From assembly GCA_025934835.1 (NCBI GenBank), contig JAICWL010000020.1, forward strand, positions 1 through 42,902: a stretch of DNA of 42,902 nt. The letters are read 5' to 3'. The notes under the pieces are model-generated. The model was not told the DNA's origin, did no database searches, and was given only the letters and a program-made list of their open reading frames with translations. Position numbers and translations under genes: made by a program. Source of the stretch: Fimbriimonadaceae bacterium (lineage in GTDB: Bacteria; Armatimonadota; Fimbriimonadia; Fimbriimonadales; Fimbriimonadaceae). This document shows positions 40,304 to 42,902 of the stretch, in pieces; positions within the stretch are counted from its first letter, which is position 1; each line of letters begins with the position of its first letter.

Positions 40304-41563
40304 CTAGGAATCCTTTCCTCCCACGAGCGCCTTCGGGAGGAACGGCAGGAATATCAGCACGAGGGCGGTCGTACCTGCGTTGAGATACACGAGATTCGAA
40401 AACGGCCATTTCTGGTCGGCCAGGCTGGAGCCGACTATGTCGGCTCCGAAAAGTGCGGCGTTTCGCACCGAGAGCATGAGCCCGTAGCCAAGGCCCTCGC
40501 AACCTCTGGGTGTGGAGCGAGCGGCCAAGTCGAGCAGGGCGAGCTCAGCGAGCGTGAAGAAGAAGCCGTTCTGCGCTTCGATGAACATGGCGCGCGTCCA
40601 GCCTGTATAGAACAGATAAAACAGCGTGCCGGCCGCGGCGGTGGCCACCCCAAAGAAGATCAGGATTCGAAGCGGCAGCTTCCTGGAGACATACCCGTAG
40701 AGCGCCGCGGCGGCGAGACCCATCGCCCCGCTGAAGATGCCGAGGTTGCCGATCGACTGCTGCGAGAATTTCAGCGTGTCGGTCTGCATGTAATAAAGCG
40801 GTGTGGCAAAGCCCGGGGAGAAGTAGAACAGCGCCATGAAGAAAAGAGCTGCCCAGAGCCGGCCGGATCGCACGATCGTCTTGAGCTGATCTCGTGCCCT
40901 CGTGAACGCTTCGAGGTTGGTCCCACGTGTGCGCTGCTCGCGGAACAAGATGAACGCGACCGGGAAAATGGATACGACGAACGCCGCGTTCACTCCGGCC
41001 GCCACGGCGAACGCGCCGGTCGCAAGCAGCCCCGAAAGCGGCCCGTTGACCAGCGTGCAGCCGTTCTGAACGAAAATTCTCAGGGCGGTGAGCCTGCCCG
41101 TCGCGCCTTCGCGCTGGCCGGCCTCGACGAGCACACCGCCGATGACCGTCGAGCCCATAACCATGAAGGCGTTTACGACGATGCATCCCAGCAGCAGTGC
41201 CGAATAGGTGTGTGGCAGGAACCCTACGACGACCCAGCTCAGACAGGCGAGCACCGAGCTTATGAGCAGGTAGGAGCGCCGCCGCGTGCCGAAGATCGGG
41301 AATGCGTCGGTGAGAATGCCGGCGAACGGCTTGAAGTACCAGGCGAGCCCGCACCAAAAGAAGAACTTCGCCATCTGCTCGCGCGTGACGTGGATTTCGT
41401 CTTTGAGCAGATGCTGCAGCGGAAGCTTTCCTAGAACTTGCGGCTGCGGCAACGTGGTGGCAAACACGCCGAACACGATGATCGCGCCCAGAATATATAG
41501 ATCGCGATTCGATACTTTAGTCGGGGCGGGCGCCACGTCCGGGGAGGACTCTTGTGTATCCAT
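40304..41563 (-). CDS. BT1-type folate/biopterin transporter-like MFS protein
   Basis: A 419-residue membrane transporter with ~12 helices. The loop FFWCGLAWYFKPFAGILTDAFPIFGTRRRSYLL is the hallmark of the folate-biopterin transporter (BT1) branch of the MFS. A second characteristic block reads VMGSTVIGGVLVEAGQREGATGRLTALR. The likely substrate is a pterin or folate, though bacterial members are poorly tested. The ATG at 41563 has no Shine-Dalgarno sequence; TATCAT at 41579 lies 14 bases upstream. The selenoprotein gene ends 48 bases upstream on the same strand. Confidence 0.85.
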   Translation of the reverse strand: MDTQESSPDVAPAPTKVSNRDLYILGAIIVFGVFATTLPQPQVLGKLPLQHLLKDEIHVTREQMAKFFFWCGLAWYFKPFAGILTDAFPIFGTRRRSYLLISSVLACLSWVVVGFLPHTYSALLLGCIVVNAFMVMGSTVIGGVLVEAGQREGATGRLTALRIFVQNGCTLVNGPLSGLLATGAFAVAAGVNAAFVVSIFPVAFILFREQRTRGTNLEAFTRARDQLKTIVRSGRLWAALFFMALFYFSPGFATPLYYMQTDTLKFSQQSIGNLGIFSGAMGLAAAALYGYVSRKLPLRILIFFGVATAAAGTLFYLFYTGWTRAMFIEAQNGFFFTLAELALLDLAARSTPRGCEGLGYGLMLSVRNAALFGADIVGSSLADQKWPFSNLVYLNAGTTALVLIFLPFLPKALVGGKDS

Positions 41564-41611: not shown

Positions 41612-41869
41612 CTAGGCTCGAATGTAGCGTCGAACGAGCTCGACAGCGTCTGCCGTGTCGATATGCGAGCCGCTGGCCAGCTTGGAATAAACGAGCTTAT
41701 CGTCGACGAAGATCTCGTAGCGCCCACCGCTCGACGGGATGAGCGAGATCTCGCGGACGGTCTGGGGTGTGCCGACCGGCACCTTGAAGGTTTCCACTAG
41801 CGCTTTGGCCAAACTGACCGCGCGGTCCAGATACCCTCAAGAAGTGCAGAACTCGATCCGAACTCGCAT
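41612..41869 (-). CDS. SelW-like (Rdx family) selenoprotein with in-frame UGA
   Basis: Reading through an in-frame TGA at 41837-41839 gives an 85-residue protein beginning MRVRIEFCTSUGYLDRAV, U being selenocysteine at residue 11. This reproduces the CxxU redox motif and the following GY of selenoprotein W. The rest (ISLIPSSGGRYEIFVDDKLVYSK, SGSHIDTADAVELVRRY) is the Rdx/SelW thioredoxin-like fold. Directly after the UGA, 41830-41814 can form a bacterial-SECIS-like hairpin: stem CUGGACC/GGUCAG with one bulged G and a GCGC loop starting with G. A conventional call would start at an ATG at 41812 and lose the redox site. The protein is probably a small thiol/selenol oxidoreductase. Confidence 0.82.
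41814..41830 (-). promoter_or_regulatory. candidate bacterial SECIS hairpin in the SelW-like gene
   Basis: The hairpin begins 6 bases after the UGA (41839-41837): CUGGACC pairs with GGUCAG, leaving a bulged G and a GCGC apical loop. A G in the first loop positions at ~14 bases from the UGA is close to the known bacterial SECIS pattern. Confidence 0.55.
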
Positions 41870-41943: not shown

Positions 41944-42354
41944 CTATTGCGGCGCGGGCTTAAAGAGCCAGATATGCGCGCCCTGAGGATCGTGGATGAG
42001 CGCCATGCGTCCGACGGTCGGGATGTCCATAGCGGGCACGACGAGCGTAGCCCCGAGCTCGATGCACCTGGCGACGCGCGCATCGACGTCGTCGACGCTA
42101 AGGTAAGTCGACCAATGCGGAGGCACATCCTTCATTTCGGGGGAATTCGTGGCCTGCACGCCGGCGACGCCTTGGCCGTCTTTCGTGAGCATCCTGTAGA
42201 CGCCCATGTCGCCCATCGGATAGTCCGTAACTCCGAAGTCCAGGGCCTTCGTGTAGAAGTCGACGATCGCGTCTGCGTCGGGTCCGTAGACCTCGTGCCA
42301 GACAAAAGTGCGACCGGTTAATAATGATTGTTGATCGGCAGTAGAAGTAGACAC
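41944..42354 (-). CDS. VOC (glyoxalase/bleomycin-resistance) superfamily protein
   Basis: A 136-residue protein with the VOC fold. It opens with FVWHEVYGPDADAIVDFYTKALDFGVTD (beta-alpha-beta with a metal-ligand-type His), has HWSTYLSVDDVDARVARCIELGATLVVPAMDIP in the middle, and ends GRMALIHDPQGAHIWLFKP, with the usual Asp-Pro-x-Gly turn. Members are metal-dependent lyases, dioxygenases or binding proteins; no substrate is evident. The start is GTG at 42354, 6 bases after TATGAT. Confidence 0.88.
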   Translation of the reverse strand: MSTSTADQQSLLTGRTFVWHEVYGPDADAIVDFYTKALDFGVTDYPMGDMGVYRMLTKDGQGVAGVQATNSPEMKDVPPHWSTYLSVDDVDARVARCIELGATLVVPAMDIPTVGRMALIHDPQGAHIWLFKPAPQ

Positions 42355-42645: not shown

Positions 42646-42902
42646 ATGGAAAGAGGGCGGCTCGAGGCATTCAGCGACGGGGTGATCGCCATCGCCATTA
42701 CGGTGATGGTGCTAGAGCTTCGGCCACCGCATGGCGCGAACTGGCATGATCTGAATTTGTTCTGGCCAGAGCTTGGCACCTATGCGCTGAGCTTCGTGTT
42801 CCTCGCGATCTACTGGAACAATCATCACCACATGTTCCAAGCCGTCGACCGTGTGGACGGCTCGGTGCTCTGGTCGAACATGCACCTGCTGTTCTGGCTG
42901 TC
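42646..42902 (+). CDS. TMEM175/DUF1211-type potassium channel protein, 3' truncated
   Basis: The gene runs off the window end. The first ~85 residues contain the TMEM175-family hallmark RLEAFSDGVIAIAITVMVLELR (R-x3-FSDG helix 1 that lines the pore). A second helix follows (LGTYALSFVFLAIYWNNHHHMF), then MHLLFWL, the start of helix 3. Bacterial members form tetrameric potassium-conducting channels in the inner membrane. The ATG at 42646 gives the expected short N terminus. No ribosome site is evident. Confidence 0.9.
   Translation, partial: MERGRLEAFSDGVIAIAITVMVLELRPPHGANWHDLNLFWPELGTYALSFVFLAIYWNNHHHMFQAVDRVDGSVLWSNMHLLFWL

Follow-up and report, generated by a model that had tools for sequence, protein, structure and literature searches.

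Bacterial SelW-like selenoproteins have been catalogued before. A passage on a 2005 Sargasso Sea set counts 48 of them with a CxxU motif (PMC1088965), the corresponding section of a 2006 analysis names SelW-like proteins among those families for which Sec-containing organisms have very few Cys homologues or none (PMC1794560), and an entry in a 2022 table gives Rdx with CxxU (PMC9312934). As described in those parts of the three papers, the catalogued proteins resemble the gene reported here in their family (PF10262), in a CxxU motif whose U is encoded by UGA, in a downstream stem-loop with G in a small apical loop, and in having few Cys homologues in Sec-using organisms; they differ from it in host lineage, which here is presumably Fimbriimonas, in the Armatimonadota. 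Since bacterial CxxU SelW is already catalogued, the gene joins a known family, and what is new, modestly, is the host lineage and the mis-calling of the gene. In eukaryotic selenoprotein W the motif is also CxxU; the hairpin described below differs from the eukaryotic arrangement in lying in the coding region just past the UGA, not in the 3'-UTR. The bacterial Rdx proteins of solved structure (2fa8, 2obk, 2oka, 2ojl, 3dex and 2p0g) are alike in family and fold, and presumably have Cys at the position of the UGA.

Words beginning with "Armatimonad" were absent from the main text of the five selenoprotein papers compared. A literature search combining selenocysteine or selenoprotein with Armatimonadetes, Armatimonadota and Fimbriimonas returned no selenoprotein report, as judged from the listings. 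The main text of the F. ginsengisoli genome paper (PMC4072686) has no words beginning with "selen"; it states 46 tRNAs for all 20 amino acids, and its table gives 47.

The window, meaning the whole stretch of 42,902 nucleotides that was analysed, is contig 159 of a source genome of 3.33 Mb in 190 contigs, 94.9% complete. The features of the locus and its neighbours are the following.

40304 to 41563, minus strand: downstream neighbour, BT1/MFS transporter (PF03092, 101.2 bits)
41612 to 41869, minus strand: predicted SelW-like (Rdx family) coding sequence, 85 residues with UGA as Sec, ATG start, TAG stop
41612 to 41812, minus strand: ORF of 66 aa from TTG in a mechanical ORF list, expected from a conventional call
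41800 to 41823, minus strand: SECIS-like hairpin with a 5-bp upper stem, a 3-nt AAA bulge and a 4-bp lower stem
41811 to 41815, minus strand: apical loop AGUUU, 21 nt past the UGA
41837 to 41839, minus strand: in-frame TGA, predicted Sec codon, residue 11
41837 to 41848, minus strand: CxxU redox motif C8-T-S-U11, N-terminal active site
41944 to 42354, minus strand: upstream neighbour, glyoxalase/VOC superfamily (PF00903, 42.6 bits)

The frame runs from the ATG at 41869 to a TAG at 41614-41612 with a single in-frame TGA at 41839-41837, and its translation is MRVRIEFCTSUGYLDRAVSLAKALVETFKVPVGTPQTVREISLIPSSGGRYEIFVDDKLVYSKLASGSHIDTADAVELVRRYIRA. The initial annotation had carried a SelW/Rdx frame upstream through the TGA to this ATG and had read CTSU as the CxxU redox motif restored; the coordinates and the motif were both confirmed. 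It had also held that conventional calling would yield 66 residues without the active site, and the mechanical ORF from the TTG at 41812 agrees: strand 1 (residues 2-8) and the active site (residues 8-11) are encoded upstream of it. The forms of this gene in the protein database are 61 and 56 aa long. The predicted protein matched Pfam Rdx (PF10262) with 71.9 bits over residues 2-80 (cut-off 22.6) and the NCBIfam model TIGR02174, CXXU_selWTH, of the SelT/SelW/SelH subfamily, with 57 bits (cut-off 34.2); the Campylobacter-type equivalog NF041051 was not reached (55.5 against a cut-off of 88). An AlphaFold model made with a 38-sequence alignment, with Sec entered as Cys, had a mean pLDDT of 94.1 and the elements of a thioredoxin-like fold: a strand at 2-8, the CxxU loop, a helix at 14-27, three strands, a short helix and a C-terminal helix. 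The best 21 Foldseek rows were bacterial Rdx protein chains (E at most 5.0e-6, TM-scores 0.78-0.88), the top structures being 2fa8, 2obk, 2ojl, 3dex, 2oka and 2p0g, followed by MIEN1 and mouse SelW. The profile search against PDB agreed in finding SelW-related proteins; mouse SelW (PDB 2npb), which shares the Rdx/thioredoxin-like fold, was found with a profile E of 9.2e-6 and a Foldseek E of 2.9e-3.

We regard it as very likely that the gene encodes a SelW-like Rdx selenoprotein, its UGA predicted to be decoded as Sec by the SelA, SelB, SelD and tRNA-Sec of the genome, with the hairpin as the likely guide. From the sequence, selenium would be incorporated at residue 11. SelB would bind the hairpin and deliver Sec-tRNA-Sec at the UGA, and the ribosome would then make an 85-residue thioredoxin-like protein. 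C8 and U11 may form a reversible selenenylsulfide; the protein would then act in thiol/selenol redox chemistry, in which glutathione or another small thiol of that kind may take part. Without Sec, translation would end at residue 10 and would give no working protein.

The initial annotation had concluded that the organism makes selenocysteine, and the genome supports this: tRNA-Sec, selB and selD are present, and selA is split over two contig ends. The tRNA-Sec scored 72.3 bits (cut-off 47), the sole one among 16 matches above the cut-off. The same cut-off let through 5 of 14 control genomes, or 3 of 14 with stricter filters, so that the score alone is no proof; the ARAGORN call concurs, giving tRNA-SeC with anticodon tca. 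The selB gene (349 bits, cut-off 242) encodes GTPase, SelB beta-barrel and SelB-wing_3 domains, and selD scored 354.7 bits (cut-off 125). One selA piece covers model positions 154-454 and begins at base 5 of contig 140; the other, model positions 1-154, lies on the minus strand in the first bases of contig 37. The two pieces score 335.2 bits, which exceeds the cut-off (267.9), and 126.9 bits; they are probably one gene cut by assembly.

The selD gene of the same genome (L018:1501-2418, contig 91 of G000) has an in-frame TGA near the N-terminus, in MVCGGGUASK, and its SelD product is probably a selenoprotein as well. The hairpin at this gene is stable, with a folding energy of -18.4 kcal/mol (z -1.74, with 10 of 200 shuffles as stable), but has a first loop, CCA, that does not follow the G rule given below. 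No in-frame TGA was found in the four matches to molybdopterin oxidoreductases in the genome, so no Sec formate dehydrogenase was seen there, and none in the two matches to CMD/AhpD-like proteins, so no CMD-type selenoprotein was seen.

The hairpin was compared, by hand, with the limits that the Fig 2 legend of PMC13188914 sets for bacterial SECIS elements. As stated in that legend, these are an apical loop of 3-9 nt, an upper stem of 4-16 bp, a distance from UGA to loop of 16-37 nt, G within the first two loop positions, mostly as G[G/U], and a minimum free energy (MFE) of at most -7.5 kcal/mol. The window sequence at 41823-41800, GCGCGGUCA-GUU-UGGCC-AAA-GCGC, can be read as a loop AGUUU on a stem of 4 bp or as a loop GUU on a stem of 5 bp, both within the limits, and the distance, counted on the sequence, is 21 nt. 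The loop had been called G-initiated; this stands if the A-U at its mouth is paired, as in the MFE fold with its GUU triloop, but otherwise the loop is A-G-U-U-U, with G at the second position, still inside the rule. The 46-nt stretch made up of the UGA and the following 43 nt, in which a small 3-bp hairpin precedes the main one, has an MFE of -13.1 kcal/mol, which lies below the limit though it is unexceptional for the composition. No Rfam SECIS family matched at 41780-41850; this was a library check, not a defining constraint.

The initial annotation was right that a hairpin lies directly after the TGA, but its folding energy does not exceed that of shuffled sequences (z -0.09; 89 of 200 dinucleotide shuffles were at least as stable), and in the window sequence alone the hairpin is no more than expected by chance. 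A synonymous-codon null was used for 14 loci, those of the window and 13 relatives, in which the protein was held constant. Taken singly, the energies of the 14 loci were weak against synonymous resampling as well (z from -1.82 to +0.59; control windows in the same test gave a mean of -0.29, sd 1.02). Folding energy is thus uninformative as SECIS evidence, and the case rests on pairing at fixed positions and on covariation.

At fixed positions, the six-pair stem had 77 standard pairs out of 84 over the 14 loci, compared with 61.0 +/- 2.7 expected, and the second and third loop positions read GU in 13 loci, compared with 0.93 expected; neither value was reached in any of 5000 synonymous resamplings. 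Covariation was scored on 30 loci with shuffles that ignore relatedness. The score was 0.289 versus 0.132 for shuffled data (0 of 500 reaching it), and cells changed on both sides numbered 12 versus 2.9 in shuffles, which again ignore relatedness (0 of 500); a weaker measure, three pairs with two-sided change, was attained by 19 of 500 shuffles of the same kind. When the register was slid, the score was at most 0.117. The outermost pair formed in just 15 of the 30 loci. The loop reads AGUUU in 12 of the 30 sequences and GGUCU in another 12. Where the loop codon is Ser it is always AGT (15/15) and where it is Gly always GGT (12/12), the remaining three loci having Arg; elsewhere in the 14 ORFs AGT makes up 1 of 58 Ser codons. 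Pairing and loop are therefore conserved beyond synonymous codon choice, with compensatory changes. The window copy departs somewhat from this consensus: four of the six consensus positions are paired and the stem resumes past the 3-nt AAA bulge, whereas the consensus hairpin of the relatives has no bulge. A covariance model of the hairpin, which contains the window sequence, found the window's own copy with an E of 2.2e-6. The scan scored 150 of 1689 first-look candidates; two further matches, with E of 4.4 and 5.7, were read as chance.

The distribution of the gene was followed in a set of 61 genomes made up of the source genome, 19 congeners, 17 confamilial genomes and 24 others of the order. 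Rdx was present in 14 of the 61, with exactly one TGA in each, and searching with the protein alone gave 13 Rdx loci in this set, each again with one TGA. Relatives starting downstream of the TGA had been named as one finding that would speak against the gene, and all 14 Rdx genes carry the TGA instead. Across 291 Armatimonadota genomes, these 14 included, Rdx was found in 39, of which 38 have one TGA; the single Cys-type gene (G122) is counted against the Sec reading. A scan of named genomes from Chloroflexota, Gemmatimonadota, Actinomycetota and Armatimonadota gave 10 loci out of 10 with a TGA at the same place and a hairpin similar by eye, but its patterns were drawn from TGA-type sequences and so biased it towards TGA, and two of the 10 are contigs of relatives already counted.

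A tRNA-Sec above the cut-off was found in 29 of the 61 genomes, in 13 of the 14 with Rdx as against 16 of the other 47 (Fisher p 1e-4; p 1.3e-4 when restricted to the 52 genomes with completeness of 90% or more and contamination of 5% or less). One genome with Rdx, G054, lacks both tRNA-Sec and selD; its completeness is 73%. In G050 there are two tRNA-Sec matches above the cut-off, of 77.7 and 53.1 bits, on contigs 57 and 13. selD was above its cut-off in 30 of the 61 genomes; one TGA lies inside the match in 25 of these, all 25 with tRNA-Sec, the position of the TGA being read solely in the source genome. G013, with a selD lacking TGA, is the sole selD genome without tRNA-Sec. The Rdx gene was absent from all 19 congeners searched, though four of them have tRNA-Sec, and this absence leans against the selenoprotein reading. 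One congener, G008 (tRNA-Sec locus L052), has tRNA-Sec and a TGA-containing selD with no Rdx match.

Neighbouring genes were compared at 12 loci, taking on each side the longest ORF, chosen by length alone. No neighbours recurred over these 12 loci, save a downstream protein similar by eye in G029 and G135. In the window, a TMEM175-like potassium channel gene (PF06736, 106 bits) at 42646-42900 runs past the end. The SelW gene lies about 0.6 kb from selA on the opposite strand in G026 (L060), and about 0.4 kb from msrA on the same strand in G029 (L058); the proximity to MsrA is a single case, a lead at most.

It may be that Sec is decoded at this UGA and that the gene is nevertheless a dispensable recent passenger, outside the core redox system of the lineage. 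Its absence from every one of the 19 congeners fits this, as does a tree of 39 rows and 84 columns, in which the window protein groups with that of the confamilial G033 (99/95), and this pair lies in a 7-row clade (96/94) that also contains three Chloroflexota sequences and two more from Armatimonadota. Gene transfer with Chloroflexota is possible from these sequences. The tree is weak, however: 7 of its 36 inner branches have good support, and the fork linking the pair to the Chloroflexota rows stands at 89/44; another Chloroflexota row is placed elsewhere. The two further Armatimonadota within the same clade also count against a passenger, and patchy loss from a Sec-using ancestor would produce the same pattern. 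We judge a recent passenger to be unlikely, yet the most serious of the competing explanations.

That the true product is a short protein starting past the TGA (66, 61 or 56 aa), with the upstream frame due to chance, is very improbable. Such forms are what mechanical and database gene calls give, but strand 1 and the invariant Rdx Cys are encoded upstream and would be missing from them, and the Pfam match extends over residues 2-80. An aligned set comprised 30 of the 38 TGA loci, the window included, the other eight not having been fetched. All 30 have the TGA at the same codon and a Cys three codons upstream; pN/pS, pooled over all pairs, was 0.54 for the 8 codons ahead of the TGA and 0.63 for the 15 codons that follow. 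With pN/pS below 1 before the TGA and an invariant Cys there, a short protein alone is no explanation.

Still less probable is a pseudogene, in which the TGA would be a nonsense mutation or a sequencing error in a Cys-type Rdx gene. A lone TGA in an otherwise open frame does resemble a recent nonsense mutation, and the gene is lacking in the 19 congeners searched, but all 30 aligned sequences have the TGA at one and the same codon, pN/pS stays below 1 before and after it, and the hairpin covaries. In a separate alignment, 13 homologues were 28-64% identical to the protein of the window.

A profile search of the protein database gave 555 homologues, and 119 of the 120 listed were aligned, the window's own being left out. 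At the Sec column, these 119 listed homologues (P0004-P0122) have W in 56, C in 36, no residue in 25 and another residue in 2. A reading of UGA as tryptophan (code 4), so that residue 11 would be Trp, could draw on the 56 W rows and is as improbable as a pseudogene, given that TGA terminates 2 of 6 inspected genes in the window and 28 of 55 stop-to-stop frames of at least 250 codons (coding or not), that the machinery and the hairpin fit Sec, and that the W rows would be best explained by gene callers picking code 4. The database forms suggest that gene callers may read the Sec UGA as Trp under code 4 or start after it.

A SelW-like selenoprotein is the preferred reading of the gene. For the phylum as a whole we propose, tentatively and as somewhat short of an even chance, that SelW in Armatimonadota is nearly always a Sec protein and a main client of the Sec machinery; that the phylum would be a largely undescribed group of Sec users, with SelW hidden from databases as truncated or Trp-misread forms; and that SelW and the Sec trait may have been gained and lost from species to species, partly through exchange with Chloroflexota.

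With this locus, a lineage on which the literature search found no selenoprotein report gains a Sec-decoding genome and a predicted selenoprotein that is well supported. Gene calling conceals the family, through short database forms and probably through W at the Sec column, and a correction of the annotation is due phylum-wide. Comparing related species that have or lack SelW and tRNA-Sec would be useful for learning why Sec is kept or lost.
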